Positions 10,256-26,637 of a DNA stretch of 64,000 nucleotides are shown here, in pieces; position 1 is the first letter of the stretch; the number at the start of each line of letters is the position of its first letter. The notes under the pieces are model-generated. The model had not been told where the DNA came from, did not search any database, and saw nothing but the letters and a program-made list of their open reading frames with translations. This stretch comes from Kiritimatiellia bacterium (GTDB lineage Bacteria; Verrucomicrobiota; Kiritimatiellia; RFP12; UBA1067). Location: the NCBI GenBank assembly GCA_017406465.1, contig JAFQYM010000038.1:1-64000 (forward strand). The letters are read 5' to 3'. The position numbers were made by a program, and so were the translations under genes.

Positions 10256-10273
10256 AACTGGTTAAAACCAGTT
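10256..10273. promoter_or_regulatory. 18-bp palindrome, operator-like, copy 1
   Basis: AACTGGTTAAAACCAGTT is a perfect inverted repeat with an AA centre. Its right edge lies 23 bp before TATAAT at 10297. The same sequence with the same spacing occurs at 13717, and a variant at 26591. Its centre would be near -44 relative to the predicted transcript start, touching the -35 region. Confidence 0.8.
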
Positions 10274-10296
10274 GCCCGTTTCGCTGCGTTAATTGA

Positions 10297-10302
10297 TATA
10301 AT
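10297..10302 (+). promoter_or_regulatory. -10 box that sets the start of the BSP-like gene
   Basis: TATAAT at 10297-10302 overlaps the upstream ATG at 10301, so that ATG cannot be in the transcript. The next in-frame ATG, at 10310, is where transcription should begin, which implies a leaderless message. Confidence 0.65.
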
Positions 10303-10309
10303 GAGTGGC

Positions 10310-12307
10310 ATGAAAGCGACCACTCTTCGCATTCTCTGCGCCGCATCGGTCGCGGTGGTTTTCGCGACTTCCGCGTCCGCGCTGAACGTCGTCTACGACA
10401 ATCGCACGCCGCAGGAGCACCGCGAATGGGCGGAGCGCAACCATCTTCCAGCGCACATGGAAGTCGCAGCGCGGCGCATCTGCACTGCGCTTTACGGCAA
10501 CGAACCGCGCTCGCGCCTGTACGAGAACTTCACCATCACCCTCTACCTTGCGCCGACGAGAGGCGGAAATCCCGCGTTCGCGTCCGGACGCCGCATCACG
10601 TGGAAGGTGGGCGAGCATCCGTCTGGCACAATCGGGGAATGTCCCGGGATACTCGTCCACGAGATGACGCATGTCCTCGACATGGGGTCGGACCGGGTGT
10701 TCACCGAGGCGATGGCGGACTGGGTGCGCTACTACAGGGTGTGCACTAATCCCGCAGGGGTGCTTGACCGACGGTACGGTGCGCTGCGCGGCGGACGCAA
10801 CTACGGCAAGTATGCGGCGGGCGCGAACTTCGTCGACTTCATGACGCAGAACTACGGCGAAGGTACGATCTACAGGATTCTGCAGGGCTACGCGAAGCAC
10901 CACGGCAAGGTATGGGAGAATGTGTTCGGCAAGACGTTTGACGGCCTTGTGGGCGAGTGGCGCCAGATGGAGACGATATATGATCCGGTGTTCCAGTGGA
11001 CGTACACCGGAACGGCCGAGGGAAAGCGCCGCTGGGACGGGAAGTTCTGCGGACTCAGATCCGTTGCGGCGAAGGAGGCCTCGGACAAGTCCGGCGCGTG
11101 GATAGACGGCACGACGGCCGGACGGGTCAACAACGTATCCGACGGCAGTCTTGCGATTGCGCTGCACGGCAGGTTCCCGTCCGGCGGCACGCCAGTGGCG
11201 ATAGCCTCTTTGGGCGCGGCGAAGGAAGGCGAGGGGAAGTCGGTGCTGCTTGCGTCCGGGCAGAGGCGCGACACGCTGTACGCGCATGTCGTCGCGACGG
11301 TGCACGGGAAACCTTGCGCAATTGTCACGACGCGGCAGATTCCCGTCCCCGCCCTTGCCACGAAGCCGCACGCCGTCGTGCTGTCGGTAGCCCGAGGGAA
11401 TGAAGCGCAGATATCCGTCGACGGAAAGACGCCCGTCGTTGTCGACATGAAGACGAAGTGCGCCGGCTGCTCGTTCGCCCCTGTGTTCGCGGTTGGAGGA
11501 ATGTCGGGTGGAATCGGCGTCGCAGGAATCGCCGAAGCGCGCGGCGAGAAGGGCATCTGCATAGACGACATGCGCGTCTTTGCGCGTGCGTTCAGGAGGC
11601 GCGAGACGGCGGACTACGCTGCTGCGTTCGGCCCGGACTACCGCGCTGCGGTCGCGGTCAGCGCGGAATGGTGCGGCAAGCCCGGCGCGGCAATAGACGA
11701 TCCCGCCAGCTGGCGGTGCTTCAATTCCATCGGCGAGCGCGTCGGCGTTCTGCCTTCCAAGGATACCGTCGTGAGGGTGTGGGGACGGAATCTGCCGTCA
11801 GTCCCGTCTAAGTCTAAGTTTTCATGCAAGTCCTTCATCATCGACGGAATCGTCGTGGTCGAGGATGCGGATGTCGATCTACGCGGCGCGGGTGTCGTGG
11901 AATTTGCGGACAACACGCATGTCATAACGCGAAACGGACGCCGCGTCGCGCTCGCCTCGCTTCGTGCGAACAGCGTCCATCTCGACGGCATGCTCGCCGT
12001 CACGGACGAGATGAAACTGTCCGGGCGCCTCGCAATGAAAGCGGGGAGCGTCCTTCGCCTTCCCATCAACCCCGACAGGGCGTCTGCAAAGTCGATTTCC
12101 ATCATCGGCGACGGAGCGGTGGCGCTCATGCCAGGTTCCTCCGGTCGGCGCAACCAGTTTCAGAAGATCATCCGCCTCGAAGAGATGCCGAATGACATGT
12201 CGCGCTTTCGGCTCGGGCCGTCCGACGGGCCTGACGACGCGGACTTCAAGCCGGCGACCGGCGGCAAGTTCCTCGGCGCAACCCCGCGCAAGCCATCAAA
12301 CCAGTAG
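10310..12307 (+). CDS. Exported BSP-like metalloprotease with LamG-like region
   Basis: The start at 10310 follows from the -10 box overlapping the earlier ATG, and it gives a signal peptide (residues about 1-24, ending SASA). Residues about 25-220 resemble the basic secretory protein family of putative zinc proteases: HEMTHVLD (HExxH near residue 116), then EAMADWVRYY and NYGEGTIYRILQGY. Residues about 240-435 resemble a LamG/concanavalin-type beta sandwich (SDGSLAIALHGRF, CIDDMRVFARAF). The remainder (about 440-640) is beta-repeat sequence like surface proteins. It is probably extracellular; the substrate is unknown. The promoter carries the 18-bp palindrome. Confidence 0.7.
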   Translation: MKATTLRILCAASVAVVFATSASALNVVYDNRTPQEHREWAERNHLPAHMEVAARRICTALYGNEPRSRLYENFTITLYLAPTRGGNPAFASGRRITWKVGEHPSGTIGECPGILVHEMTHVLDMGSDRVFTEAMADWVRYYRVCTNPAGVLDRRYGALRGGRNYGKYAAGANFVDFMTQNYGEGTIYRILQGYAKHHGKVWENVFGKTFDGLVGEWRQMETIYDPVFQWTYTGTAEGKRRWDGKFCGLRSVAAKEASDKSGAWIDGTTAGRVNNVSDGSLAIALHGRFPSGGTPVAIASLGAAKEGEGKSVLLASGQRRDTLYAHVVATVHGKPCAIVTTRQIPVPALATKPHAVVLSVARGNEAQISVDGKTPVVVDMKTKCAGCSFAPVFAVGGMSGGIGVAGIAEARGEKGICIDDMRVFARAFRRRETADYAAAFGPDYRAAVAVSAEWCGKPGAAIDDPASWRCFNSIGERVGVLPSKDTVVRVWGRNLPSVPSKSKFSCKSFIIDGIVVVEDADVDLRGAGVVEFADNTHVITRNGRRVALASLRANSVHLDGMLAVTDEMKLSGRLAMKAGSVLRLPINPDRASAKSISIIGDGAVALMPGSSGRRNQFQKIIRLEEMPNDMSRFRLGPSDGPDDADFKPATGGKFLGATPRKPSNQ

Positions 12308-12326
12308 TTCGCTATGACGTGGGAAT

Positions 12327-12359
12327 AATGGGGAGGGACCCCATTGTGATTTCGTTTTT
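12327..12359 (+). terminator. Intrinsic terminator after the BSP-like gene
   Basis: Perfect inverted repeat AATGGGG / CCCCATT (12327-12333 and 12339-12345) with loop AGGGA, followed by a T-rich stretch ending in TTTTT. It separates the plus-strand gene from the convergent ATPase gene. Confidence 0.6.
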
Positions 12360-12378
12360 CGCGCCATAATCGGCTGAA

Positions 12379-13515
12379 TCAGAAGATGCGGCCAGACCAG
12401 AGCTGGTCGATAAATACACGCCAAGGAAGTATGCCGATTTCGTCCGTTTCCCTTTCCGTGGGTTCGTCGCACACAAGCAGCCGCCGGGCAAATCGCCCCT
12501 CGTCGGCGATTGCGCGAAGACCCTTCAAATCCTCCTTGTCCGCATTGCGCGTCGTCTTGACTTCGATTGCCGTTTCGCCGTTGATGACAAAATCGACTTC
12601 AATCTTGGTGCGCGTGCGCCAGTAGGCGATTTCGGCGTCGCGCCTGCAGGCGTCAGCGTAGGCGCTGATTTCGTGGAGAATCCAGCTCTCGAATGCATCG
12701 CCGTATTCGGGTGTGCCGCGAACGAGCTCTTTGCGCCGCTGGAGCCGTCTGGTGACGCCCGTGTCGAAGAGATAGAACTTGGACGTTTCGACAGTCTTTC
12801 TGGATTGCCCCTTGCGCCATACGGGGACTTCCCGGGCAAGAAGGGTGTCGTTGAGTATCTTGAAATACTCCTGGACGGTGCTTCTGGGAATCTGCGCGTC
12901 GGAGGAGATGGACTGGTAGTTGATCTGGTCTCCGCTGGAGAGGGCGGCTATTTCGAGGAAGCGGCTGAACGCCGGCAGATTCCTCGTCGCCCCCTCCTGC
13001 ATGATTTCCTGCTGAAGATAGAGCGAGACATATCCGGCGAGGTCTTCTTCCGGTTCGTCAGAAAACCATATCCCCGGAAGAAGTCCATAGTTCATGGCGC
13101 GGTCGAGGTCGAATCTATCGCCCAGCTCCGATGCGGAGAAAGGATGTATGTTCCTAACCCTCGCCCTGCCGCCCAAGAGGTTGACTCCGCCTCTGCGGAG
13201 CTTTCTGGCGCTGGAGCCCGTGAGAAGAAACTTGAATCCGCGCGATTCTATGAGGCGGTGCACTTCGTCGAGCAGCGACGGCATCTTTTGGATCTCGTCG
13301 ATGACTATCGGCCGGTTTTCGCGGCAGACCTCCTCGATGTATCCAGCATTGCGGGCAAGGCGGGAGAATGTATCGGAGTTGAGCAGATCAAAAATGTATG
13401 CGTCGGGAATCGTTTCGCGTATGAGCGACGACTTGCCGCATTGGCGAGGTCCGAAAAGAAAGCAGGACTTGTGCTCAAGTACGCTGGAAACGTCGAGTTT
13501 TCGCTGAATATACAT
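12379..13515 (-). CDS. AAA-type ATPase with DUF4143 C-terminus
   Basis: Member of the widespread ATP-binding AAA_14/DUF4143 family, whose function is unknown. Walker A is GPRQCGKSS near residues 23-31 and Walker B is IVIDEIQK near 70-77. A sensor strand FLLTGSSARKL lies near 95-105. The C-terminal half contains a helical linker and a nuclease-like segment (IEVDFVINGETAIEVKTTRN), reminiscent of PD-(D/E)XK sequences. Length 378 aa is usual for the family. It is a lone gene opposite to its neighbours, as these mobile accessory genes often are. A long open frame on the plus strand here is an antisense shadow. Confidence 0.8.
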   Translation of the reverse strand: MYIQRKLDVSSVLEHKSCFLFGPRQCGKSSLIRETIPDAYIFDLLNSDTFSRLARNAGYIEEVCRENRPIVIDEIQKMPSLLDEVHRLIESRGFKFLLTGSSARKLRRGGVNLLGGRARVRNIHPFSASELGDRFDLDRAMNYGLLPGIWFSDEPEEDLAGYVSLYLQQEIMQEGATRNLPAFSRFLEIAALSSGDQINYQSISSDAQIPRSTVQEYFKILNDTLLAREVPVWRKGQSRKTVETSKFYLFDTGVTRRLQRRKELVRGTPEYGDAFESWILHEISAYADACRRDAEIAYWRTRTKIEVDFVINGETAIEVKTTRNADKEDLKGLRAIADEGRFARRLLVCDEPTERETDEIGILPWRVFIDQLWSGRIF

Positions 13516-13699
13516 CAGATTTCCTCCTGTCTGACGTTCAAACGAGCATATTCTATCATTTATGACGGGCAGAAGTCAATGGCAAATCGCCAACTCTATC
13601 GGCAGATTTGCAGTAAATTCGCCAACTCTGTCGGCGGTTTGCTAACTATCTTTGGTTATCTTTTCATGTGCTCTCATGTCTTTGCGCTGCGGAGTTTCA

Positions 13700-13734
13700 A
13701 AAACCAGTTGAAAAAAAACTGGTTAAAACCAGTT
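13700..13734. promoter_or_regulatory. 18-bp palindrome, operator-like, copy 2, with extra half-site
   Basis: A perfect AACTGGTTAAAACCAGTT lies at 13717-13734, 23 bp before TATAAT at 13758. A second half-site, AAAACCAGTT, precedes it at 13700-13709, which also creates CCAGTT...AACTGG. The arrangement suggests cooperative binding of a dimeric regulator. Confidence 0.8.
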
Positions 13735-13757
13735 CGCTATCACTGGAGAGTTCATGT

Positions 13758-13791
13758 TATAATATCGTTGCAAATGAATATGCAAAGGAGG
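13758..13791 (+). promoter_or_regulatory. -10 box and ribosome site of the thioredoxin-fold gene
   Basis: TATAAT lies at 13758-13763. Unlike the leaderless promoters, this transcript has a leader of about 32 nt with a strong AGGAGG at 13786-13791, 10 nt before the ATG at 13802. Confidence 0.65.
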
Positions 13792-13801
13792 GACATCAGA
13801 T

Positions 13802-15247
13802 ATGACCCGCTTTATGAAAACAACTGCTGCTGTCGCCGTCGCGGCAATCGCGGCAATTGCCGCAAACGCGGCGGATGCGAACGGCGTCAAGCTCAAGGTC
13901 ACCGGCGTCGCCGTGGTGGACGACACGTACGACGGCAAGAGAGGGGCAAAGTTCCTGCCGCCGGAGACGCGCGTCGTTGTCCCGTCGGACAAGCGGCTTG
14001 CGCTGTTCCGCGTTGAGTATGACGTGCCGACGAACATGAACGTATGCATCTACCTTGATGCGAACGGCCACGAGGACAAATTCGGCTTGGGCTGCAATTT
14101 CGGCACCAGCGGATCAGGTCTATACAGCGGAGCAGGCGTCTGCGCAAGGATTCTCCATCTGGATGGAAAGAACTACTGTGAGGGCGGCGACTTGTACGAC
14201 GACGGTGTGTTGGTGAAGTCTGTCAGGCTGTTCTGCTACGAAGAAGAAGACGATGAATGCGGTTTCTATGTCTGCGATGCGCCGGTCAACGTCCTGTTCG
14301 CGAAGGACGGCGAGAAGAAGACTGGCGGCTTCAAGGTGCTGGAGCCCCTGCCGCCGCCGCCCGCCAAGTCGCTTTCGCTCCTGCCGGGCTGGACGGAGGA
14401 CTTCAAGGCGGCGTGTGCCCAGGCGAAGAAGGAGGGCAAGCTCGTCCTCGCGTACTTCCTCAACTCTCGCCCGGGCGATGACGGCAAGGCAACGAGAGTT
14501 CTGGACCACGAGGTGCTTGGCTCCGAGGAGTTCCTGAAAAAGGCCGGCGAGTCGTATGTCCTATACATGGCGGAGCTTTACAAGCCCTGCCAATCATGGA
14601 CTGCGCACAACAATGTCATTCCGGCATGCAAATATGCCGCGCGGAAGGGGACGTTCTCTCCCCCGGAAATGGCGATCGTCCATCCCGACGGTTCGCGCGT
14701 TGCGCTTCTGGACAAGGGCGGCTGGGAAGGGGGCGTCGACGGCTATCTCGCGAAGATGGAAAAGGGGCGCAAGGCCGGTCTTGCAAAGCAAGAGGCGGCG
14801 AAAAAGGCGCGCGAAAAGGCGGCGAAGAAAATCCCGCCGAAGACAGACAAAACATCTACGCCCGCCGGCTTCACCGACAATCTCGACGAGGCGCTCGCCA
14901 AGGCGAAGGCCGAGGGCAAGCTCGTCTATGCCTGCTTTTCCGGCAGCGACTGGTGCTACTGGTGCAAGAAGCTGGAAGATGAGGTGCTGTCCGACCCTTT
15001 GTTCGTGGCGGGCGTGATGGACGACTACGTCCTCGTGTTCATCGATTCGCCTCAGAACAAGGCGCGGCTCTCGGATCACGCGAAAGCCGAAAATAAAAAG
15101 CTGACGAAGAAATACGGCATAGAGGGCTATCCCACGGCGCTCATCCTCGACGGCGACGGCAAAAAGGTCGGCAAGACCGGCTACCGCGAGGGCGGAGCGG
15201 CGGAATACGTGAAGTATCTCAAGTCCATCAAGAAAGACCACCAATAA
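13802..15247 (+). CDS. Exported protein with two thioredoxin-like domains
   Basis: The signal peptide covers about residues 1-24 (TTAAVAVAAIAAIAANA). A beta-rich domain runs to about 180. A first thioredoxin-like domain (about 195-320) lacks the CxxC motif (LAYFLNSRPGDDG at the usual site). A Lys/Ala-rich linker of about 25 residues follows. A second thioredoxin-like domain (about 355-480) has an intact redox site WCYWCKK near residue 384. The second domain resembles DsbD-gamma or thioredoxin_7 proteins, so thiol-disulfide exchange outside the cytoplasm is likely. Only 15 bp separate it from the next gene, so it may serve the cysteine-containing caspase fusion encoded there. The promoter has the 18-bp palindrome. 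Confidence 0.75.
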   Translation: MTRFMKTTAAVAVAAIAAIAANAADANGVKLKVTGVAVVDDTYDGKRGAKFLPPETRVVVPSDKRLALFRVEYDVPTNMNVCIYLDANGHEDKFGLGCNFGTSGSGLYSGAGVCARILHLDGKNYCEGGDLYDDGVLVKSVRLFCYEEEDDECGFYVCDAPVNVLFAKDGEKKTGGFKVLEPLPPPPAKSLSLLPGWTEDFKAACAQAKKEGKLVLAYFLNSRPGDDGKATRVLDHEVLGSEEFLKKAGESYVLYMAELYKPCQSWTAHNNVIPACKYAARKGTFSPPEMAIVHPDGSRVALLDKGGWEGGVDGYLAKMEKGRKAGLAKQEAAKKAREKAAKKIPPKTDKTSTPAGFTDNLDEALAKAKAEGKLVYACFSGSDWCYWCKKLEDEVLSDPLFVAGVMDDYVLVFIDSPQNKARLSDHAKAENKKLTKKYGIEGYPTALILDGDGKKVGKTGYREGGAAEYVKYLKSIKKDHQ

Positions 15248-15262
15248 AAATTGTGTAAAACC

Positions 15263-18200
15263 ATGAAACAATCTATCGCTGTTTCGGTGATTGCAGCCTG
15301 CTTCTGCGCGGCGGGGATGACGGCGCTGGCCGTTGATTTCAACATGCTCTCGTGCTGTCCGGGCGAGAACACGGCGACGCAGGCGCGGTTTGTCTGGCAC
15401 TCCGGCAGCAGCTCGTGCCTGCTTTTCTGCGCCAAGGCGTCCAGCCCGGAGAACGTGTACACCATACTCCCCTACGCCAGGCAGAACAAGCCGGTGGCTT
15501 TTCGTTCCGCCGATGTCGCATACTACAAATACGAGGCGCAGATATCCGACCTCGAGCCGGACACGGAATACCTCTACTGGGTTGAGGCGGGCAGCGATGC
15601 GTCCGCCCGCCAGAAGTTCAAGACGGCCGGAACGAGCGGCAGCTTCAATTTCCTCTGGATGAGCGACGTCCATGCGCATCCCGACAATCCCGGCAAGATG
15701 ACGACGGTCGAGCTGCTTCGTCAGGATGCGGAGGCGCAAACGGCATCGTCCGGCGGAATCGACCTTGTCCTCTTTTCCGGCGATGCGGTGAAGTACGGCT
15801 CGCGCTACGACAACTGGCAGCAGTGGAACGGTGCGCCGACGGTGACGAACTACATGTTCGCCATGATTCCCGGAAACAAGGAATACTACTACACCGGCTC
15901 CAGCACGTTCTACGACTACTACTGGTATCTCGCCGTGAAGAACAACCCGCCGAACGGACCCGGCACGACGGAGCAGGAGGGCTGCTACTGGTTCCTGCGC
16001 GACGGCGTGATGTTCGTCGGCATCGACTCGCTGATTCACAAGGGGTCAAGGATGACGATGTACAACAAGAAGAGCGAGGTCCTCGCGGCGCAGACAAACT
16101 GGTTCGACAAAGTCGTCACATCGCAGCGCGGCAAGTTCCGCTACCTCGTCGTCTTCCAGCACGATCCGTGGTTCGTGTATGCGGCGACAAAGAATTCGTT
16201 CGACAAGTCGCGCGGCAACTACGATACGTGGCGGCACGTGTTCGACAAGCACAAAGTGGACCTTGCGCTCTCCGGCGACGAGCACAACTACATCCGCACT
16301 AAGCCTTTGCGCGGGGATTCCGCAAATTCCGACGGCACGATCTACATGGTGGCCGGGCAGATAGAGGAGAGCAACTACTCCGCCACGATAACAACGGACA
16401 TCGCAAGCTACGGCAACTCGAACGCGACAAAGTACTTCGACTGCATGGGCGCTACGGATGCTTCCTGCGGAGCGGCATGGATCGAGGTGCGGCCTGATTC
16501 GCTGAAGGTGACGGAGTTCTGGGACAAGTGGCAGAGTCCGAACTACAAGGTCTACGACACCGTGACGATAACACCCAAGGCGAGAGGCTGGGCGTTCGAG
16601 GATATCGGCGCGCGGGCACACAAGCGCTACCGCTTCGCCGTGGACGCACCGAGGAGCGATTCGAGGATGATGCAGTTGTCCGAAATCGAGCTTCTGGATG
16701 CCAACGGGAATGTGATTCCGCCCAGTGATTTTACTCTGGCTTGGGATTTGATGACGACAAACTCGGCAGGACAGACATACCCGTCGAACGAAAATCCAGG
16801 CCTTGCCGCAGATGGAAAGCTCGATACAAAGTGGCTGGACTATCGCGCGGGTCTCGACAATCCTGCGGACGTGCGCGCCGCCGCGTGGCTCGACTTCTGC
16901 TTTTCAAGCCCCGTGAAGATATCCGGCTACCGCTGGTACACGGCGGGCGACAACAGCTGGTACCCGAGCCGCGCGCCGGTTTCGTGGACGTTCTCGGCCT
17001 ACGACGACAATGACGACACGTGCTACATTCTGGACAGGGTGTCGGGATACGACTCTCCCAAGGATAACAAAGTTCTCGCGTACCCGCTGCCGCCTTCGCC
17101 CGACGAGCCCGACGAACCGGCCGGGCCTGGGGAATCGGCCGTCACAACCGCGGGCGGGGTCTACTACGCATTGAGCGTGGGAGTAAACAACTACAAGAAC
17201 GACAGGCAGAACAAGCTCAACGGCTGCGTTGCCGACGCGGAGGACGTGCTGAGCGCGTGCACGAACGGCGTCAAGGGATTGTGGAATCCGATGAACTGCC
17301 GCTGCCTCAGCGACTCGGCGGCGACGCGCTCCGCCGTGCGGGCGCAGTTCCAGACATTGGCAGGCGAGGCGAGAAAAGGCGACACTGTTCTCTACTACCA
17401 TTCGAGCCATGGCGGCGACGACTGTCTTTGCCTCTACGACGCAGAATACTACGCCGATCAGTTGGCGGAGGACCTTATGCGGTTCGCGGCGGGCGTCCGT
17501 GTTGTCGTCGTTCTTGACACGTGCCATTCGGCAAGCATGTTCAAGGGGGCGGACGAAGACTCCGAGTCTGGTCCGTGGGATTTCGCCGCGAGCGTCCAGG
17601 CGTACATGGACGCGATGCAGACGGTGCTGACGAAAGGCGCCAAGTCCGCCGCCGCGAGCGGTCCGTCCGTCGGATGGGTCACGGCCTGCGACGACGACCA
17701 GACTTCCCTTGAGTCAAACAAGCGCGGAAAGTTCACGAAGCCGTTTGTGGAGGCGTGGAAGACGGACGGCACGGACGCGAACGGCGACGGCTACAACGAC
17801 TTCAAGGAGATGTTCAACATTGCAGCGCCGAAGGCCGTCGACAGCGTGCGTGCGCCGCAGACATTAAATGAAAGCCTCCTCAGGAATGTCGCCGCATGGG
17901 AGGTGTTCTACCATCCTGTTGTTTCTGACAAGTGGCTTGAGGAGACAATGGACACGAGGCTTTCGACTGGAGCGTGGTCCGAACCCGTTTCATACGACTC
18001 TGACGGCAGGGCGTATCTCGGCGGCGAAGTCGTCTTTACGCCATTCCACGCCTCCACGGGGAATGTCGTGACGGTAGAGACAAAGGCGCAGTTCTGCGAA
18101 TACACAAGTGACGATGTGCCTGACATGACCGCCCAGGCCGCCGTCAGGCTCTCCACCAACGGATGTTTCCAGGTGTGGGCGAAGACGGGGTGGGTGGATG

Positions 18201-18937
18201 TCGCGGCTGAGGGCATTACACCGGTGAGCGGCGAGGAATATACGCTTCGCACGACCTTTGACTACACGGCGAATATCTATTCTGTTGAAGTTAAGACAGG
18301 ATTAACAGAATTTACAAGATTAGGAGAAAAGATAAATCCTGTCAATCCTGTAAATCCTGTCAGAACCTCTTTCCCCATTGCCGCAGTCACAAACTGCATC
18401 TCCTCGGTCGCGTTCGTGGGCGATACACTCTTCACGTCCATGATTGGCGACTGCCGATACGAGATAATCGGTTTCGTGGCGAATGAAGCGCTTGCTCTGT
18501 CGAACAACGTCCAGATCGTCCTCAGCGCGGCAAAGGCAGCGTGGCTCAACAACTGCGCAGGCGGCAAGGCGACGGTCGCAGGCGCAGCAGCCGGACTTTC
18601 GGGAAAGGATTTCACTGACGCCTACCTTCTCAACCTCGACATCACCGACGGCGATCGCTCGTACACCTTTGAGATTACTGACATCGACGTTGGCGACACG
18701 AGCGTGTCTGTCGCCGTCACGCTCACGCGAAGCGGCAGCATAGCGCAGCCCATCAACGGCGTCCTGAAGTTCTACGGCGCGGCGACCTTGGCGGCGTTCA
18801 AGGATGGCGCGACCGAGCTCGGCGCGGCGGAACTCACGAACGAAACCTTCGCCGGCGGCGAAACCGCCACGGCGACGATTCCGCTCGATGGCGAGACCCC
18901 GCCCGCCTTCTTCAACGCAAAGATCGAAGAACAGTGA
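15263..18937 (+). CDS. Exported fusion: purple-acid-phosphatase-like, discoidin-like and caspase-like domains
   Basis: The ATG at 15263 opens a signal peptide (MKQSIAVSVIAACFCAAGMTALA); a TTG at 15251 is less likely. Residues about 25-125 look like the Fn3-type domain of purple acid phosphatases. Residues 131-350 are a metallophosphatase (MSDVHAHP, SGDAVKYG, GNKE in place of GNHE, FQHDPW, SGDEHNY). Residues about 453-600 look like an F5/8 type C domain. Residues about 633-880 are a caspase-like C14 domain with HSSHGG (712) and DTCHSAS (751). The C-terminus is beta-rich. A repeat element at 18292-18364 inserts Asn-Pro-Val repeats in frame. The reaction and substrates are unknown; the GNHE change may weaken the phosphatase. 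Confidence 0.75.
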   Translation: MKQSIAVSVIAACFCAAGMTALAVDFNMLSCCPGENTATQARFVWHSGSSSCLLFCAKASSPENVYTILPYARQNKPVAFRSADVAYYKYEAQISDLEPDTEYLYWVEAGSDASARQKFKTAGTSGSFNFLWMSDVHAHPDNPGKMTTVELLRQDAEAQTASSGGIDLVLFSGDAVKYGSRYDNWQQWNGAPTVTNYMFAMIPGNKEYYYTGSSTFYDYYWYLAVKNNPPNGPGTTEQEGCYWFLRDGVMFVGIDSLIHKGSRMTMYNKKSEVLAAQTNWFDKVVTSQRGKFRYLVVFQHDPWFVYAATKNSFDKSRGNYDTWRHVFDKHKVDLALSGDEHNYIRTKPLRGDSANSDGTIYMVAGQIEESNYSATITTDIASYGNSNATKYFDCMGATDASCGAAWIEVRPDSLKVTEFWDKWQSPNYKVYDTVTITPKARGWAFEDIGARAHKRYRFAVDAPRSDSRMMQLSEIELLDANGNVIPPSDFTLAWDLMTTNSAGQTYPSNENPGLAADGKLDTKWLDYRAGLDNPADVRAAAWLDFCFSSPVKISGYRWYTAGDNSWYPSRAPVSWTFSAYDDNDDTCYILDRVSGYDSPKDNKVLAYPLPPSPDEPDEPAGPGESAVTTAGGVYYALSVGVNNYKNDRQNKLNGCVADAEDVLSACTNGVKGLWNPMNCRCLSDSAATRSAVRAQFQTLAGEARKGDTVLYYHSSHGGDDCLCLYDAEYYADQLAEDLMRFAAGVRVVVVLDTCHSASMFKGADEDSESGPWDFAASVQAYMDAMQTVLTKGAKSAAASGPSVGWVTACDDDQTSLESNKRGKFTKPFVEAWKTDGTDANGDGYNDFKEMFNIAAPKAVDSVRAPQTLNESLLRNVAAWEVFYHPVVSDKWLEETMDTRLSTGAWSEPVSYDSDGRAYLGGEVVFTPFHASTGNVVTVETKAQFCEYTSDDVPDMTAQAAVRLSTNGCFQVWAKTGWVDVAAEGITPVSGEEYTLRTTFDYTANIYSVEVKTGLTEFTRLGEKINPVNPVNPVRTSFPIAAVTNCISSVAFVGDTLFTSMIGDCRYEIIGFVANEALALSNNVQIVLSAAKAAWLNNCAGGKATVAGAAAGLSGKDFTDAYLLNLDITDGDRSYTFEITDIDVGDTSVSVAVTLTRSGSIAQPINGVLKFYGAATLAAFKDGATELGAAELTNETFAGGETATATIPLDGETPPAFFNAKIEEQ
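18292..18364. repeat. Hairpin repeat inside a coding sequence (AATCCTGT family)
   Basis: The left arm begins GACAGGATTAACAG and the right arm contains three AATCCTGT(C/A) units; the arms pair over about 27 bases with a few mismatches around a short loop. It is read in frame and gives an INPVNPVNPV stretch. This type of sequence is otherwise typical of intergenic DNA. Confidence 0.7.
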
Positions 18938-19283
18938 GAGCTAGGAAATATCCTGCCTTTCAATCCCACCCAGTATCCTCAAAGTCTAAACGCAAGGGAA
19001 TCTTGCATTTGCTTCTGGACTTCACACCCCCAAAAAACTGGTAAAAGAACTGGTAAAAGGTATCTTCAAAACGCAACAATTTTTTAGTATAATTGCGGCA
19101 AAAGCGCGTGAGTGTATCATCCGACGAGAATTGACTTGATGCAGAAATACGCAGACATAGCCATGCAAAATGGCGTCGCCACAGAGGCCGCAGGGCGGTC
19201 TTCTGGCGGCTTCTGCTTCGCCCGCGCTACCCCCTCCTTCACTCCCCCACTTTTATAAAAACCACTATCAAGGAGACAAACTG
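18938..19283 (+). promoter_or_regulatory. Regulatory region and long leader of the autotransporter-like gene
   Basis: This 346-base gap holds a tandem direct repeat of 12 bases (AACTGGTAAAAG at 19036-19047 and 19048-19059) related to the 18-bp palindrome half-site. TATAAT follows at 19088-19093, about 23 bp after the repeat region. The implied leader is about 185 nt and ends with AAGGAGA before the ATG at 19284. I see no structured RNA family in the leader. Confidence 0.6.
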
Positions 19284-22046
19284 ATGAAAACACCAACAAG
19301 ACGAACGGCGCACCGCCTCGCTGCGGTGCTTGCAATCGCCACCGCCTTCGCCGCCACCGGCGCTTGGGCGGAGGACTGGACGGTGAGCGAAAACACGACG
19401 CTAACCGCAGACACGACGGTTGACGCGCTCACCGTCGAGGAGGGCGTCACGCTCGACCTCAACGGCTACAAGCTCTACTGCACATCCCTCGCCGGTAGCG
19501 GCACAATCACCAGCACGTCCACCGACCTCACGTCCCCCGACACGGGCGGCACGCACGTGACGTGGATTACGAAGTTCGGCAAGGACGGTGCGACGGCTGG
19601 CGGGGAACTGCGCACCACTGCAAATGCCGACAACAACCCACGCAACCTTTTCAACGACTTTAATGGCACTGACGCGCCGTCTTCCAGCGACACTTCCGCC
19701 GCCGTCACTCCAAAGAGAATACTTGTGGAAACGGCTTTTCTGCCGCTTGCCGTCACCTACGATTTCGGCGACGGGACACCGAAGAAAGTCAATGCGTACA
19801 AGATGGTTGCAGTGCGTGCAGGCAATTCGACCAAAGATTACTACAAGAGGTGCCCGAAGACGTGGATCTTCGAGGGGTCGAACGGCAACGACGAGTGGAA
19901 ACCGCTCCATTCGGCGGACAATGTATCGTGGCAGGCCAGCGGGAGTTCGCCGAAGGAGTTCTCGTTCTCCAACGATACCGCCTACCGCTACTACCGCATC
20001 ACATTTAATGCTTCGAGTGCTACCGACTTTCTTGAAGTGAACCAGCTGGAATACTTCGGTCCCGGCGAGCTGCATGTGAATGTTCCGGCGGTTGCGGAGG
20101 CGACAGTAGAATCGCTCACGATTTCCGGCAACATGAAGGTTGTGAAGGATGGCGAGGGCAGGCTGAACGGCGTCACGGGTATCGGCTCCAACACATTCCC
20201 GGGCGTGCTTGAGGTCAACGCCGGCACGGTGTATGTCGATGCGGACTTCAAGCTTGGTACTGCCGCCGACGGGACGCTGACGATCAACGGCGGCACGGTC
20301 GAGGTGAATAGCAGCAAGGCAACGCATATCGGAGCGAGTAGCGGCAAGACCGGCACGGTAAACCTCAACGGCGGCATCCTTAAGACAAAGCGCCTCGTCA
20401 ACGTAAACGGCGGCACTGGCAAGGTCAAGTTCGATGGTGGAATGCTCCAGGCGAATAACGCAGATAACAATGGGCTTTTCGGGATCAATGTTACGGTCAC
20501 CGTAAACGAGCGCGGCGGCACGATCGACAGCGGCAACTTCGCAGTGACGGTTCCGGCGGCCATCAGCGGCACGGGCGCGATGCGGTTCAAGGGCGGCAAT
20601 ACGATTACACACAACGCCGCCAGCGCCTACACCGGTGGCACGGCCATCGAACTCGGCACGAAGATCGTCACTTCAAATGCAGATGCGAAGGCTGCCATTA
20701 TTGACAATCTCGCCATAGACGGCAAGACAAAGATGGCTGACGAGAACGGCATCGTCGTGTTCGAGTACAGCGGTTTGGCCGACGAAGACGTTCCCACCCC
20801 CGATTACAAAAACTGCGGACTCGGCACGACGATTTACCGTGACGGCGATACACTCAAGGTTGATTTCGTCCTCCCGGTCTGGGAGCTCGCGGCAGATACA
20901 ACCTGGAGCGACCTCGTTGCGACATACGGCGCACCAGCCGCCGACGTGATTGTTCGCATCGCGTCTTCTGGTGGGTATACGCTCACCATCGACACGGATG
21001 TAGATGTCAAGGAACTTGTGTTCAATGATGGCGCGAGCGCAACGTTGACTGTTGCCGAGGGCAAGACTTTGACGACGGAGAACATCAACGGCATTGGCAA
21101 GATCATCAACAACGGCACCATCGTCAAGACGGGCACAGGGACAGTCGACTGGCCGTTCGACAACGCATCCACAGGCTTGTATGTCATCAGCGCAGGAAGA
21201 ATCAACGTGTCGAAACGTACAGGTTTGGCGTATGCGGGAAGCGAGCAGGTAATTCGCGTGAAGAACGTCGCGACGTTTGACTTTCATGCCAGCAAAGGGA
21301 AAGGACTCAACTTCTCCGTCGTGCTTGAAGACGGCGCGAGATTCGCCAATAGCGACGAAGACTTTAATACTAGCAGCCAGGCTAAGAGTCTTACGCTTGA
21401 AGGCAATGCAACGGTGGTCCCTTTTTACAACTTTGGTCTTATTGCATCAGGGCATGGTGTTACAACTCTTGACCTCGGGACTTACACTCTTACCGTAGAT
21501 TCGGCAAGGAGTTTCATTCTGGACAACACGACGATTTCCGGCACGGGAACGATTCTCGTGAAAAAAGGAACGCTTTGGGCGACCCAAACAGAGTCGGGTG
21601 GTTTGGACTGCACGGTTTCAATCGGTTCTGAAGGCAAGTTGAATCTCGGGAAGAATCTTACCGTGAAGGACTTCGTAAACAATGGCACCATCAGCGGTTC
21701 TGCCACTCTTACGGTGCTTGGCGAACTTGCGCCTGGCAACCAGGTTCCGAATCTGACGCTCGCAAACGGCGCGACGGTCAAGGCGACGGGCACGGCGCAG
21801 ACTGTTTCGACGACGTTCTCCGCCTCCGGCACGATTACGGTCGATGCCTCGGGGATTACGAAGGAGCAGTTGGACGCGGGCAATGTCGCGGTCCTGACCG
21901 TCCCGTCCTCGTTCAATACATCAAGCGTGAAGTGGAACGTCAGCGGCGAACAAATCGCCGGCACTCGCGCGAAGTGGAGAACCGATGGCACGACCCAGAC
22001 GCTCTATCTCTGCAAGCCCATCGGCCTGATGGTGATCTTCAGGTAA
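19284..22046 (+). CDS. Large exported autotransporter-like beta-repeat protein
   Basis: The start at 19284 is set by AAGGAGA upstream and opens a classic signal peptide (RRTAHRLAAVLAIATAFAATGAWA). The mature protein of about 890 residues is rich in Gly, Thr, Asn and Val, with repeating short strands (GTLTINGGTVEVN, GTVNLNGGILK, NGTISGSATLTVLGELAPG) typical of autotransporter passenger beta-helices. An embedded discoidin-like region lies at about 90-270 (TWIFEGSNGNDEWK, YRYYRITFNA). No outer-membrane barrel domain is visible. The C-terminus ends in a short hydrophobic tail (KPIGLMVIFR), which could be an anchoring or sorting tail. It is probably a surface protein; its ligand is unknown. Confidence 0.75.
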   Translation: MKTPTRRTAHRLAAVLAIATAFAATGAWAEDWTVSENTTLTADTTVDALTVEEGVTLDLNGYKLYCTSLAGSGTITSTSTDLTSPDTGGTHVTWITKFGKDGATAGGELRTTANADNNPRNLFNDFNGTDAPSSSDTSAAVTPKRILVETAFLPLAVTYDFGDGTPKKVNAYKMVAVRAGNSTKDYYKRCPKTWIFEGSNGNDEWKPLHSADNVSWQASGSSPKEFSFSNDTAYRYYRITFNASSATDFLEVNQLEYFGPGELHVNVPAVAEATVESLTISGNMKVVKDGEGRLNGVTGIGSNTFPGVLEVNAGTVYVDADFKLGTAADGTLTINGGTVEVNSSKATHIGASSGKTGTVNLNGGILKTKRLVNVNGGTGKVKFDGGMLQANNADNNGLFGINVTVTVNERGGTIDSGNFAVTVPAAISGTGAMRFKGGNTITHNAASAYTGGTAIELGTKIVTSNADAKAAIIDNLAIDGKTKMADENGIVVFEYSGLADEDVPTPDYKNCGLGTTIYRDGDTLKVDFVLPVWELAADTTWSDLVATYGAPAADVIVRIASSGGYTLTIDTDVDVKELVFNDGASATLTVAEGKTLTTENINGIGKIINNGTIVKTGTGTVDWPFDNASTGLYVISAGRINVSKRTGLAYAGSEQVIRVKNVATFDFHASKGKGLNFSVVLEDGARFANSDEDFNTSSQAKSLTLEGNATVVPFYNFGLIASGHGVTTLDLGTYTLTVDSARSFILDNTTISGTGTILVKKGTLWATQTESGGLDCTVSIGSEGKLNLGKNLTVKDFVNNGTISGSATLTVLGELAPGNQVPNLTLANGATVKATGTAQTVSTTFSASGTITVDASGITKEQLDAGNVAVLTVPSSFNTSSVKWNVSGEQIAGTRAKWRTDGTTQTLYLCKPIGLMVIFR

Positions 22047-22072
22047 GGCTGTAGAATGTTGCCAATGTTGCC

Positions 22073-22140: not shown

Positions 22141-22186
22141 CCACATCGGCAACATTTATCATGACAACCTCGAAACTAACTAAACC

Positions 22187-23938
22187 ATGACGGCGCGGAC
22201 GATTATCTTGCTTGGCGCGGCGGCCATGTTCGCCGCAAGCGGCGCACGGGCGGCGGAGACGCTTGATCGCGACATCGTGATATACGGCTCGAGTCCGGCG
22301 GGGATCTCTGCGGCGGTGCAGGCTGGGCGCATGGGCAAGTCCGCTGTCGTCGTCTCGCCCGAGACGCGCATCGGCGGGCTTACGACGGGCGGACTCGGAC
22401 AGACCGACATCGGCAACAAGTCCGCGTTCGGCGGCATTGCGCTGGAGTTCTACAAGGATGTTGCCAAATGGTATTCCGACCCCGCGCACTGGACGCGGCA
22501 GACGCCGGAGCAGTACAAGCCGGACGGCCAGACCGCAGGAACGATGGGCAAGGACTCCATGTGGACGTTCGAGCCGTCCGCCGCGCTCGCGATCCTCGAA
22601 GGATGGGAGCGGCGCGACGGTCTCGACATCCGGCGCGGCGAATGGCTGGACCGCGACGGCGGAGTCACGAAAGAGGGCGGACGCATCGTTTCCATCAAGA
22701 CGCTCTCTGGCGACGTCTACCGCGGCAAGGTCTTCATCGACGCGACATATGAGGGCGACCTAATGGCGGCGGCGGGCGTCAGCTACACCGTCGGACGCGA
22801 GGCGAACAGCGTCTATGGAGAGACGATCAGCGGCATCCAGTTTCGCGAGGCGAGGGCGCACCAGCTGAAGTGGCATGTCAGCGCGTATGTCGAAGAAGGG
22901 AATCCGGAAAGCGGACTTCTCCCCGGCATCGAGCCTTGCAATCCGAACGAGAAGGACGGCGACGGCGACAAGCGCGTGCAGGCCTACAACTTCCGCATGT
23001 GCCTCACCGACGATCCTGAGAACCGCATTCCGTTCAAGAAGCCCGCAAACTACGACGAGAAGGAATACGAACTCCTCTTCCGCAACTTCGCGAGGGGTGA
23101 AAAGGCTGTGCCGTGGATAAACTCGAAGATGCCGAACCGCAAGACGGACACGAACAACCGCCTGGGCTTTTCGACCGACTTTATCGGACGCAACTACGAA
23201 TGGCCGGAGGCGTCGTACGAGCGCCGCGCCGAAATCTTCAAGGCGCACCTCGACTACCAGAAGGGACTTATGTGGACGCTCGCCAACCATCCGCGCGTCC
23301 CGGAGAAGATTCGCGCCGAAGTCTCGCGTTGGGGAACATGCCGCGACGAGTTCACGGACGGTCCTGGCGACGGATGGCAGAGCCAGCTCTACGTGCGTGA
23401 GGCGCGGCGCATGGTCGGCGAATACGTGATGACAGAGCACGAGTGCCGGGGCGACCGCGTCGCGCCGCACCCCGTCGCGATGGGCGCGTACACGATGGAT
23501 TCGCACAACGTCCGTCGCGTCGTCACCGCAATGGGCAATGTGCAGAACGAGGGCGACGTGCAGGACCGCGGACGCTACAGCGCATGGGGGCCTGACGCCG
23601 CCAAGCGCGCGAAGGGCGGCAGGATGAAGCCCTACGGCATCGACTACGGCGCGATAACCCCGAAGCGCGGCGAATGCGAGAACCTGCTCGTGCCCGTGTG
23701 CCTCTCGGCCTCTCACATGGCGTTCGGGTCGATACGCATGGAGCCGGTCTTCTTCGCGCTCGGCCAGGTGGCCGGAACCGCTGGCGCGATGGCCGCCGCA
23801 AACGGCTCCGCCGTCCAGGACGTGCCATACGACGCGCTCGCCGCGCGCCTCGCCGCCGACGGCCAGGTGCTTTCTCTGGACGCGCGCCCCATCGCCTCCG
23901 CCGCGATTCACCCCGCCGCGCCAGACTCGCCTGAATGA
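22187..23938 (+). CDS. Exported FAD-dependent oxidoreductase
   Basis: The signal peptide covers about residues 1-22 (ILLGAAAMFAASGARAA). A Rossmann FAD-binding motif follows directly: DIVIYGSSPAGISAAVQAG near residues 29-47, then ETRIGGLTTGGLGQTD. This is the FAD_oxidored family often annotated as xanthan-lyase-associated in PVC and Bacteroidota genomes. The late GSIRMEPVFFALGQVAGTAG block is the C-terminal FAD contact. The substrate is unknown, probably a sugar derivative. Translation is coupled by ATGA (23935-23938) to the metallophosphatase gene, so the two probably act together. No Shine-Dalgarno sequence is seen before the ATG. Confidence 0.78.
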   Translation: MTARTIILLGAAAMFAASGARAAETLDRDIVIYGSSPAGISAAVQAGRMGKSAVVVSPETRIGGLTTGGLGQTDIGNKSAFGGIALEFYKDVAKWYSDPAHWTRQTPEQYKPDGQTAGTMGKDSMWTFEPSAALAILEGWERRDGLDIRRGEWLDRDGGVTKEGGRIVSIKTLSGDVYRGKVFIDATYEGDLMAAAGVSYTVGREANSVYGETISGIQFREARAHQLKWHVSAYVEEGNPESGLLPGIEPCNPNEKDGDGDKRVQAYNFRMCLTDDPENRIPFKKPANYDEKEYELLFRNFARGEKAVPWINSKMPNRKTDTNNRLGFSTDFIGRNYEWPEASYERRAEIFKAHLDYQKGLMWTLANHPRVPEKIRAEVSRWGTCRDEFTDGPGDGWQSQLYVREARRMVGEYVMTEHECRGDRVAPHPVAMGAYTMDSHNVRRVVTAMGNVQNEGDVQDRGRYSAWGPDAAKRAKGGRMKPYGIDYGAITPKRGECENLLVPVCLSASHMAFGSIRMEPVFFALGQVAGTAGAMAAANGSAVQDVPYDALAARLAADGQVLSLDARPIASAAIHPAAPDSPE

Positions 23939-25446
23939 TAACAAGACGAGAGTTCGTGAAAGATGGTTTAGCGGCGCTGGGTTTCCTGGCGCTGCCGGGC
24001 GGGCTTTTCGCACCCCTGCTAGGGCATCCGCTTCGCGGACAGCCTTCGGCTGGGGGATACGCGCCTGCGGACTGGAAGCCAGCGAAGAAGCCGAACCTCG
24101 TCCTTGGTGTTTTGAGCGATACGCATCTTCAGGTGGGATGGGACGGCACATCTGTCCACAAGCTTTTCCCGCATACGTACGTCCGCAATGCGATGAAGCT
24201 TTTCAAGAAAAGGAACATCGATGCGTTTGTGCATCTTGGCGACGCGGCACATCGCGGCATCACGCGAGAGCTTGAATTCCACCGCGAACTTTTCGAGGAG
24301 GCGTTCGGCACACGCGGCGGTCCCGTGAAGCTTTTCATCGTCGGCAACCACGAATGGTACGGCGAGGCGTTCAAGGGCGGCGGCGGCGTCACTGCGGCGG
24401 GGCTGTGGAAGGATCCGGTCGAGCGGGCGAAGCATACGCTTTGTGCCGACATGCCGCGCCGCTGGGAGCAGGTCTGGGGCGAGAAGTACGAGGAAGTCTG
24501 GCACAAGGAGGTGAAGGGCTACCACTTCTTTGGACGCCATTGGCACGAAGACGAATACAAGCATGCGGGAGAAAAGCCGTTTGCGGACTACATCCTCTCC
24601 AAGGCCGACCAATTCTCACTTCGCGGAACCAAGCCGTTCTTCATCCTTTCGCACAGGCGGCACCACGCGGCATTCTGCCAGGCGCTGAAGGATTTCCCCA
24701 ATGCCATCGCGCTCTTCGGACATTGGCACTGGAGCAACGCCGACTGGAAGACGATCTTCTTCGACGCCGACACGTTCGGCGGGCATTTTCCCAACATTCA
24801 GGTCGGGGCTTGCCGCATGGACGGCGGCAACGCCGTAACGCCGTCGAGCGAAGTCAAGCTTCCGGAGGATTCAAGCAGCTGGAAAGGCGACAATCTGCCG
24901 TCGCGACAGGCGATGATAATAAACATTTACGACGACATGGTGGTGTTCGAGCGGCACGAGGTGGGCAAGGGAGGCAAGCTTGGCCCCGACTGGGTGCTGC
25001 CCCTCGGCGAATTCAAGCCGCATCCGTTTTCGCGGGACGAATTGAAGAAGACAATCGGCGAGCCGGAGTTCGGGAAAAAGGCGAAGCTGGTCGTCGCAAA
25101 AGGGACGCAGGCGACAAAAGCGACCAAAGGGACAAAGAAGGGCGATTCTGTCGCTTCCGTCCCTTCTCTTAAAATCAAGATCCCTATGGCTGACGGGAAC
25201 CCCGAATCGCGCGTCTACGCATACGAAATAGTCGTTGTAGGAGACGATCCGAAAGCGAAGCTCTTCAAGAACGCATTTTTCAAGGGCGCGAACGCAGGCA
25301 TCGGCCACGAGCTGAACCACGGCGTCACCGAAGTCGAAATCCCCGTCTCCGAACTTCCCCCTGGAAAGAAGCTGACAATTGACGTCAGTCCATGCAGCTC
25401 GCTTGGCACGAAGGGAAAATCGATCTCGACCACTTTTAGAGTGTAA
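23935..25446 (+). CDS. Tat-type exported metallophosphoesterase
   Basis: Calcineurin-like phosphoesterase with metal-binding motifs in order: LSDTHLQ (DxH, near residue 62), HLGDAAHRG (GD), VGNHEWYG (GNHE), LSHRRHH and FGHWHWSN (GHxH). The N-terminus TRREFVKDGLAALGFLALPGG resembles a Tat signal. Two repeat elements are read in frame: a 50-base element at 24011-24060, between the signal and the catalytic domain, and a hairpin at 25100-25165, giving a KGTQATKATKGTKKG stretch. The C-terminal 100 residues form a beta domain. The substrate is unknown. It is coupled to the FAD oxidoreductase by a 4-base overlap. Confidence 0.75.
   Translation: MITRREFVKDGLAALGFLALPGGLFAPLLGHPLRGQPSAGGYAPADWKPAKKPNLVLGVLSDTHLQVGWDGTSVHKLFPHTYVRNAMKLFKKRNIDAFVHLGDAAHRGITRELEFHRELFEEAFGTRGGPVKLFIVGNHEWYGEAFKGGGGVTAAGLWKDPVERAKHTLCADMPRRWEQVWGEKYEEVWHKEVKGYHFFGRHWHEDEYKHAGEKPFADYILSKADQFSLRGTKPFFILSHRRHHAAFCQALKDFPNAIALFGHWHWSNADWKTIFFDADTFGGHFPNIQVGACRMDGGNAVTPSSEVKLPEDSSSWKGDNLPSRQAMIINIYDDMVVFERHEVGKGGKLGPDWVLPLGEFKPHPFSRDELKKTIGEPEFGKKAKLVVAKGTQATKATKGTKKGDSVASVPSLKIKIPMADGNPESRVYAYEIVVVGDDPKAKLFKNAFFKGANAGIGHELNHGVTEVEIPVSELPPGKKLTIDVSPCSSLGTKGKSISTTFRV
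24011..24060 (+). repeat. 50-bp element inside a coding sequence, copy 1
   Basis: Starts CACCCCTGCTAGGGCATC and ends GGGGGATAC, with two small internal hairpins (CCGC-TTC-GCGG and AGCC-TTC-GGCT). An inverted copy of the same length, with a divergent middle, is at 27893-27942. Here it is in frame and encodes a Gly/Pro-rich linker. Confidence 0.75.
25100..25165. repeat. Hairpin repeat inside the metallophosphatase gene
   Basis: The left arm AGGGACGCAGGCGACA pairs with the right arm TGTCGCTTCCGTCCCT with few mismatches. The centre holds further GACAAAG/GACCAAAGGG units. It is read in frame and encodes a low-complexity Lys/Thr stretch. Confidence 0.6.
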
Positions 25447-25854
25447 AATGTAAAGTGTAAAGTGGGAAGAAAGAGGAAGAATGTGAAAATGTGGAAGTGT
25501 TGCCAATAACCAATACCAATTGGAAATTGGCAACGTTGGTATTGGCAACACTTTCGTATCTATGACGGCGAGTTTCATGATCCCGCTTTGTGCCATACGA
25601 AAAGGAGGACTGTTATGAAGCATAGTCTATGCGGTGCCGCGAGGTGGAGTCGCTTGTGAACGCCGTAAGATAGCTGTTCGCAATGTAGAAAAAATGAAAC
25701 ACGGCACGGCGTCAGCGGACGGCGGCTACAGGAACGGTGATCTTCGTCCGTTAATCGGACTGCATAGCCGCTCCATCAGGCCTGTCTCCACCACCTCGGC
25801 GAGACAGGGCTTTGGCTTGGAGCCGCAGCGAGGGCAGCTTGAGAATATGAGACG
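25447..25854 (+). other. Non-coding gap with repeat copy 2 and a gene remnant
   Basis: Bases 25440-25490 are A/G-rich direct repeats (GTGTAAAATGTAAAGTGTAAAG). The GTTGCCAATA palindrome copy 2 is at 25496-25553. A strong AAAAGGAGG stands before an ATG at 25616, opening a 14-codon frame. Near 25633-25660 another frame reads CREVESLVN and then stops, matching the C-terminal RREVESLVN of the broken glycosidase at 28045. I read this as a remnant of a related gene. Nothing recognisable lies in 25700-25854. Confidence 0.5.
25496..25553. repeat. Intergenic palindromic repeat (GTTGCCAATA family), copy 2
   Basis: AGTGTTGCCAATA...TTGGCAACACTT. It is the same as copy 1 at 22073 except that a short centre (GTCCAATGA) is missing. 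The arms AAGTGTTGCCAATA and TATTGGCAACACTT are perfectly complementary. Confidence 0.75.
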
Positions 25855-26142
25855 TTAGCCGTAAACTTCGTCGTGGGTTCCGATGTTGTGGAGCACGATT
25901 TCGCGATCCACAATCTCCACGCAGAGGACGATGCGGTAGGCGTAGGTGATGCTGACCGCCTGCTTGCTGCTGAGCGGCCCAGTCAGGTTGTGGAGCCGGA
26001 GCGAAGGTGTGAAAGGGTCATTTCTGAGGGCAAGAAGCGTTTCTTTGGTTTTCTCCCGGAGTTCCGGATGCTTTCGTGCGAATTTTGCAAACGCACGCTT
26101 GAATTGCGGCGTTTGGATGAGACTGTACGGAGCGCTGTGCAT
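25855..26142 (-). CDS. RelE/YafQ-type toxin of a toxin-antitoxin pair
   Basis: Small basic protein of 95 aa with the RelE-superfamily layout: PQFKRAFAKFARKHPELREKTKETLLALRNDPF (helical hairpin), then beta strands SLRLHNLTG, YRIVLCVEIVDREIVLHNIGTHDEVYG. The C-terminal HNIGTHDEVY matches the ribosome-dependent mRNA interferase group. The protein would cleave mRNA when not bound by its antitoxin. The gene lies 11 bp after the antitoxin gene, in the same direction. Confidence 0.85.
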   Translation of the reverse strand: MHSAPYSLIQTPQFKRAFAKFARKHPELREKTKETLLALRNDPFTPSLRLHNLTGPLSSKQAVSITYAYRIVLCVEIVDREIVLHNIGTHDEVYG

Positions 26143-26153
26143 TGTGGCGGCTC

Positions 26154-26405
26154 CTACTCGTCAAATTCCTTCATCAACTCTTCTACAGTAACGCGCTTGG
26201 CGAGCCCAGCGCGATATTCGGCGTCGGACTGCAGGCATTCGTTGACGAACGCTTCATGGCGCATCCGCTTAAATTCGTCGGCGAACATGACGACATATTT
26301 GGGAGTATTGTTGCTTATAACCCAAACGGGGCCGTTGGCAAGGCTCTCGTTCATGACGCTCATTCCGCGCCGCTTGACTTCCTGCGCTGGAAAAGTAACA
26401 GGCAT
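26154..26405 (-). CDS. Phd/YefM-type antitoxin
   Basis: An 83-aa protein with an N-terminal Phd-like DNA-binding fold (PVTFPAQEVKRRGMSVMNESLANGPVWVISNNTPKYVVMFADEFKRM) and an acidic C-terminal helix (VTVEELMKEFDE) suited to wrapping the toxin. It is the first gene of a two-gene operon with the RelE-type toxin. The Shine-Dalgarno sequence AAGGAG precedes the start. The promoter lies within an inverted repeat (GGTGCT...AGCACC), which fits autorepression by the complex. Confidence 0.8.
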   Translation of the reverse strand: MPVTFPAQEVKRRGMSVMNESLANGPVWVISNNTPKYVVMFADEFKRMRHEAFVNECLQSDAEYRAGLAKRVTVEELMKEFDE

Positions 26406-26420
26406 GGTAGACTCCTTACT

Positions 26421-26450
26421 GGTGCTAAATTCGGTGCAAATTATAGCACC
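26421..26450 (-). promoter_or_regulatory. Promoter and autoregulatory operator of the toxin-antitoxin operon
   Basis: On the minus strand, TATAAT (26445 to 26440) is enclosed by the inverted repeat GGTGCT / AGCACC (26421-26426 and 26445-26450); a further GGTGC lies between the arms. Overlap of a palindrome with the -10 box is the usual arrangement for toxin-antitoxin autorepression. Confidence 0.6.
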
Positions 26451-26590
26451 ATTTATCCAATGCTGTCAAGAGCCTCTGGCACTACTGGGCGTGAACCTCG
26501 ATGTGGCGAGCGTGTAGTCTGCTATTCTCCTGTCTCTCCTGTTCTACCTGCTAAAAAACACCTCGGCAGAGACAGGAAAAAAGTTGAAGA

Positions 26591-26608
26591 AACTGGTTAA
26601 AACCACTC
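26591..26608. promoter_or_regulatory. 18-bp palindrome variant, operator-like, copy 3
   Basis: AACTGGTTAAAACCACTC: the left half is identical to the perfect copies and the right half is degenerate. It is 23 bp before TATAAT at 26632-26637, the same spacing as at 10256 and 13717. Confidence 0.7.
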
Positions 26609-26631
26609 GTGTGCAATTCCGGTAGATGTGG

Positions 26632-26637
26632 TATAAT
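26632..26637 (+). promoter_or_regulatory. -10 box of the chimeric glycosidase gene
   Basis: Extended -10 TGTGGTATAAT. The ATG at 26647 is 10 nt past the box, so the leader is at most about 3 nt and the message is close to leaderless. Confidence 0.6.

Follow-up and report, generated by a model that had tools for sequence, protein, structure and literature searches.

Class-II activators such as CRP act from an operator that replaces or overlaps the -35 element at a fixed distance. FadR has an acyl-CoA domain and no LacI domain. This GntR-family protein of Escherichia coli activates fabA, fabB and iclR from 5' of the -35 (PMC9329746), and AraR of Bacillus subtilis, a GntR-LacI hybrid, is a repressor (PMC4218819). 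The sugar-utilisation regulons of the LacI family are local and small, use even palindromes, are often autoregulated and respond through a sugar-binding effector domain (PMC4052901). A literature search on the regulators of this lineage and on class-II GntR activators found nothing direct.

Operator sites and promoters

The following elements were located in the window, i.e., the whole 64,000-nt stretch of DNA that was analyzed (gap, bases between operator and -10 hexamer):

10256 to 10273, forward strand: operator 1, AACTGGTTAAAACCAGTT, predicted from the pattern search
10297 to 10302, forward strand: -10 element of the operator 1 promoter, TGATATAAT, extended; gap 23
13702 to 13709, forward strand: extra half-site, AACCAGTT, 5' of operator 2; found also in the relative L032
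13717 to 13734, forward strand: operator 2, AACTGGTTAAAACCAGTT, predicted from the pattern search
13758 to 13763, forward strand: -10 element of the operator 2 promoter, TGTTATAAT; gap 23
19036 to 19059, forward strand: tandem variant, AACTGGTAAAAG twice
19088 to 19093, forward strand: -10 element of the tandem-variant promoter, TATAAT
26591 to 26608, forward strand: operator 3, AACTGGTTAAAACCACTC, with two mismatches, both in the promoter-proximal half
26632 to 26637, forward strand: -10 element of the operator 3 promoter, TGGTATAAT; gap 23

The initial annotation had placed the palindrome at 10256-10273, 13717-13734 and 26591-26608, exactly 23 bases before TATAAT at 10297, 13758 and 26632, and all three coordinates and all three gaps proved exact. 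The two copies described as perfect are indeed exact copies, but only 16 of the 18 bases are self-complementary: the central AA is not, and it reads AA toward the promoter in every site. The tandem form was also found where it had been reported, and it is a variant of the operator, but the 23-bp geometry does not extend to it. Its half-sites begin 52 and 40 bp 5' of TATAAT, compared with 41 bp in the palindromic sites, so its geometry is different, and the promoter-proximal half-site is absent. In G010 and G012, the counterpart promoters, which carry the same leader, have the palindrome at 23 bp. A further candidate site, with the right half alone, was located outside the window (C77:41283, gap 22).

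The start codons of the first and last of these genes are likely 10310 and 26647 rather than the first ORF starts. These ATGs stand 7 and 9 bases past the -10 (10297-10312 and 26632-26649), and the transcripts would therefore be leaderless or nearly so; codon 10310 about coincides with the expected transcription start. At the tandem promoter, a strongly conserved leader of about 90 nt lies 3' of the -10 (19102-19190). It begins with AAGCGCGTGAGTGTATCATCC, is kept in G000 (the genome of the window), G010, G012 and G013 and in two copies in G052, and may encode the peptide MQKYADIAM[QL]NG. Within the genus, its first 21 bases are confined to those copies, and an Rfam search of 19060-19320 gave no match.

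Regulator and downstream genes

The genes adjoining these sites are listed below.

9124 to 10227, forward strand: GntR-LacI hybrid regulator, likely operator binder (Pfam domains, orthologue co-occurrence)
10310 to 12307, forward strand: secreted BSP-like peptidase (Pfam BSP, 23.5 bits, just under the 23.8 cut-off; hydrophobic signal sequence)
13802 to 15247, forward strand: secreted thioredoxin-fold/DsbH-like protein
15251 to 18937, forward strand: secreted calcineurin-like (purple acid phosphatase type) phosphoesterase with a caspase-like/C13 domain
19284 to 22046, forward strand: large secreted repetitive (autotransporter-like) protein
26647 to 28065, forward strand: secreted GH127-GH123-GDSL enzyme remnant, by comparison with a 1459-aa relative in G012

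The phosphoesterase ORF follows the thioredoxin-fold ORF after 3 bp, and the two are probably cotranscribed. No Pfam or NCBIfam match was found for the 19284-22046 protein. In G012, the relative of the glycosidase remnant carries an operator of its own, likewise at gap 23. The remnant (26626-28076) lacks residues 267-748 and 910-1110 of that protein and shows frame changes near 27894-27933, for which an assembly error is possible; its operator 3 is the most degenerate of the three. In relatives, the regulon includes GH3, GH127-GH123-GDSL, endonuclease/exonuclease/phosphatase-family and aspartyl protease (with BSP) genes, a GH92 gene (G049, with no -10 at 23 bp) and the regulator itself, whose own gene carries the site (L028); an MFS transporter lies just 3' of one site. 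This composition suggests glycoprotein degradation as the theme of the regulon.

Distribution of the palindrome

The genome of the window (3.5 Mb, 83% complete) was searched by pattern, with the distance to TATAAT recorded. With up to two mismatches, the palindrome was found at the three window sites and nowhere else, which upholds the original observation; the reversed control pattern, with up to three mismatches, was found in one place in the whole genome. The pattern AACTGGTNNAA-N26-32-TANNAT occurred four times in the genome, always inside the window, compared with no occurrence of its reversed control, and 100 shuffles of the window gave no palindrome match. A chance origin of the sites is ruled out by the shuffles and the reversed-pattern controls. 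The statement that the palindrome marks promoters of exported proteins was too broad, since about four or five promoters carry it here and other exported genes have no site; with only 4-5 sites in 3.5 Mb, a general mark of exported genes is ruled out. The palindrome is best described as the mark of one local regulon with mostly secreted products.

Among 61 genomes of the genus (coded G000, G004, G010 and so on), the palindrome was detected with up to one mismatch in seven: G000, G004, G010, G012, G013, G049 and G052. The spacing preference was kept in these relatives, as 20 of the 23 copies had a -10 hexamer (up to one mismatch) exactly 23 bp 3' of the palindrome, all in a single orientation with the central AA toward the promoter; it was lacking at the two sites of G049 and at one in G013. 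When the gap was left open (AACCAGTT-N9-37-TATAAT), 21 cases were obtained in nine genomes, 19 of them at gap 23, one at 22 (on C77 of G000) and one at 21, and the reversed controls gave five cases in total. The probability of 19 out of 21 at gap 23 is about 1e-24 assuming independent sites, some of which are orthologous promoters.

Promoter architecture

The spacers differed from one another by more than 40% in 11 of the 24 aligned promoters. In these 11, the operator and TTTGnTATAAT were conserved and little else: the -10 was extended in ten, and TTGACA at 17-bp spacing was unrecognisable, with a mean of 1.7 matches out of 6. A TTG at 19-bp spacing, present in most promoters, is formed by the end of the operator and the next G. 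Altered half-sites were promoter-distal in 10 and proximal in 3 of the 24 sites; no weight is placed on this asymmetry, because the non-redundant set gives 3 and 3. Two features of class-II-type promoters are thus present, an operator at a fixed distance that abuts or overlaps the -35 and a poor or absent -35 element. This arrangement fits an activator bound in place of the -35, and it is also compatible with a repressor.

Unrelated promoters of the window, at 29468, 40324, 45594, 48200 and 58112, also have an extended -10, TTTGnTATAAT or similar, which is apparently the general promoter type of the lineage. An alternative sigma-factor promoter is ruled out, as the -10 here does not depart from the ordinary extended TATAAT of such promoters.

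The GntR-LacI hybrid as the probable operator binder

The 9124-10227 product has a GntR winged helix at its N-terminus (Pfam PF00392, 44.8 bits, cut-off 27) and a LacI-type effector domain at its C-terminus (Peripla_BP_3, PF13377, 94.4 bits, above cut-off). No LacI helix-turn-helix was among its Pfam matches, the N-terminal match being GntR, so that it does not belong to the LacI family proper. The closest solved DNA-binding domain is that of AraR (4egy, E=7e-6), and the predicted model (mean pLDDT 75) resembles LacI-family structures, with a TMt of 0.78 against the AraR effector domain (3tb6).

Orthologues with at least 64% identity were found in six other genomes (G052, G012, G010, G004, G059 and G013), five of which have the palindrome. 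Counting G000, regulator and operator occur together in six genomes, the operator only in one, the regulator only in one and neither in 53, and therefore presence agrees in 59 of the 61 genomes (Fisher p=8.7e-7). Both discordant genomes are incomplete: G049 has two operators, neither followed by a -10 at 23 bp, and lacks a close orthologue, and G059 has the regulator and no clear operator. The regulator gene of G012 is immediately preceded by an operator that has TAGAAT at 23 bp, and those of G000 and G052 are immediately followed by an operator. Outside the genus, an orthologue with 52% identity (L213) is associated with AACTGGTCTAGACCAGCT-N23-TACAAT.

The proposal that the 9124-10227 product is the nearest candidate binder gained from co-occurrence, adjacency, the own-promoter site in G012, the matching DNA-binding helix and the paralogue operators at the same spacing. 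These sequence data strongly support it as the putative binder, and the palindrome is very likely the operator of this neighboring regulator.

Paralogous regulators

A scan of the surroundings of 73 loci, nearly all of them with a more distantly related GntR-LacI gene of the genus, counted, per gap, any 18-bp palindrome 5' of a TATAAT-like hexamer. Gap 23 gave 13 cases and gap 22 gave 9; the remaining gaps averaged 2.0 (sd 1.7), and with scrambled hexamers the two counts fell to 4 and 2, respectively. Gap 38 was also raised (9 cases, partly copies for divergent promoters), and a scan of other genera gave a weak peak of three at gap 23 and three at gap 22. Scans for the CTTGT and CCTGT operators with a strict TATAAT gave few matches.

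Many of these palindromes have GntR-like cores (AACTTGT-N4-ACAAGTT, NACCTGT-N4-ACAGGTN, AACCTGC-N4-GCAGGTT), and they sit 5' of the regulator gene, 5' of its neighbor or between divergent genes; AACTTGT/ACAAGTT is the putative operator of the paralogue at L167. Operator types cluster on the regulator tree and track clade and DNA-binding helix: the CTGGT-operator regulators of this clade and L066 have FPSL and a similar recognition helix, and most others have PSE, with the CTGGT-operator regulator at L113 as an exception. In some paralogue promoters, a -35-like TTGACG or TTGCGG directly follows the operator.

In G057 (contig C2; L040 and L113), AACTGGTATATACCAGT was found five times, all within 20 kb beside its GntR-LacI regulator, with the -10 at gap 34 in four and at gap 22 in one; a TATAAT at 27 is present in addition at one of the gap-34 sites. 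Gap 34 equals 23+11, one helical turn. The AACTGGTATATACCAGT sites constitute a second regulon. At L116, one AACCTGC-N4-GCAGGTT palindrome serves divergent promoters, at gap 23 on one side and 38 on the other, and at L135 similar palindromes lie at gaps 21 and 38.

It is conceivable, at slightly less than an even chance, that the expanded GntR-LacI family of this Verrucomicrobiota order is a standard set of ligand-responsive activators with clade-specific operators, the dimer sitting mostly at gap 22/23 or 34 before an extended -10.

Proposed mechanism and alternative explanations

A dimer of the 9124-10227 product would bind AACTGGT-TAAA-ACCAGTT through its GntR-type winged helices and span about -53 to -36 from the expected transcription start, with its centre near -44.5, positions that assume a start 7 bases past the -10. 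These promoters have no -35 hexamer but do have an extended -10 (TGnTATAAT), and so the dimer, once bound, most likely stands in for the -35 contact and would recruit RNA polymerase as a class-II-type activator. A ligand of the LacI/periplasmic-binding-protein domain, probably a sugar, would control this recruitment. The regulon would be small and would consist, for the most part, of secreted proteins (peptidases, phosphatases, glycosidases and one protein with a thioredoxin fold), joined in some relatives by the regulator itself, and the many paralogous regulators would use the same operator-to-promoter geometry with other operator letters.

The identical spacing had been taken as an argument for a regulator that contacts RNA polymerase; the fixed spacing was borne out in relatives, with unrelated spacers in at least 11 promoters, and polymerase contact is its best reading. 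The same regulator could instead repress from the same operator, in the manner of AraR or LacI, the dimer blocking polymerase at the -35 until the ligand releases it. AraR, the closest characterized hybrid, represses (PMC4218819), the operator abuts the -35 position, and many paralogues have sites at their own promoters, several at gap 22/23, as expected of autorepressors; where TTGACG or TTGCGG follows the operator, repression is equally plausible. Against repression, there is no -35 there to block, the operator centre is oriented, and the exact spacing to the -10, beyond mere overlap, is kept across unrelated spacers, as well as being shifted by one turn to gap 34 in a paralogue. Repression is therefore unlikely, although it deserves consideration, and activation is the likely mode, given that the operator belongs to the neighboring regulator.

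That another DNA-binding protein owns the operator, the GntR-LacI gene being a bystander, would account for the operators of G049, which has no close orthologue, but is hard to reconcile with the agreement across 59 of 61 genomes, the GntR-type half-site, the presence of the operator in front of the regulator gene of G012 and the change of operator type with regulator clade, and is improbable. The spacing might also have been inherited from one promoter cassette copied to several genes, with no selection; certain promoters are evidently orthologues or duplicates of one another, e.g., those with the CGCTATCAC and CGTCATCAC spacers. Against such copying, operator and -10 are constant in at least 11 promoters whose spacers have diverged at over 40% of positions, and the unrelated operators of the paralogues keep 22/23 bp, which makes it very improbable. 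Sites, spacing, co-occurrence, the paralogue pattern and the missing -35 were observed, and from these we infer binding, activation and a ligand; jointly, an operator of an AraR-like GntR-LacI hybrid and a class-II-type activator remain the probable reading.

Significance and comparison with known systems

If this is true, the class-II-type activators would gain the GntR-LacI hybrids, a group represented by repressors such as AraR. The operator would link secreted glycosidases and peptidases to a controlling sensor in uncultured rumen Verrucomicrobiota, and the shared distance with differing operators suggests a standard mode of switching on such genes in this bacterial group. With a fixed geometry and operators that track clade, the regulons of dozens of paralogous regulators may be readable from sequence alone.

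Among the known systems, AraR shares with this regulator the GntR winged helix and LacI-type effector domain, an even palindrome in which GT and AC stand four bases apart, and the recognition-helix Arg41, which contacts G5. The AraR operator is At(T/A)tGTaCGTAcaa(A/T)T, with ATTTGT where AACTGGT stands here; in the alignment, E30 is replaced by Leu and R45 by Val, and for this reason the regulator was not assigned as AraR itself. AraR also differs in being a repressor, and the constant 23-bp distance to the -10 is a further feature that sets the operator here apart. FadR is similar in the placement of a GntR-type DNA-binding domain 5' of the -35 region, with activation being putative here. The LacI-family regulons resemble this one in the palindrome, the small local regulon and the effector, and differ from it in the DNA-binding domain, which is of the GntR type here. 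The likeness to CRP at class-II promoters lies in the fixed-distance operator at the -35 and in the paralogue site one helical turn further upstream; the protein family differs, as does the centre, near -44.5 here compared with -41.5.
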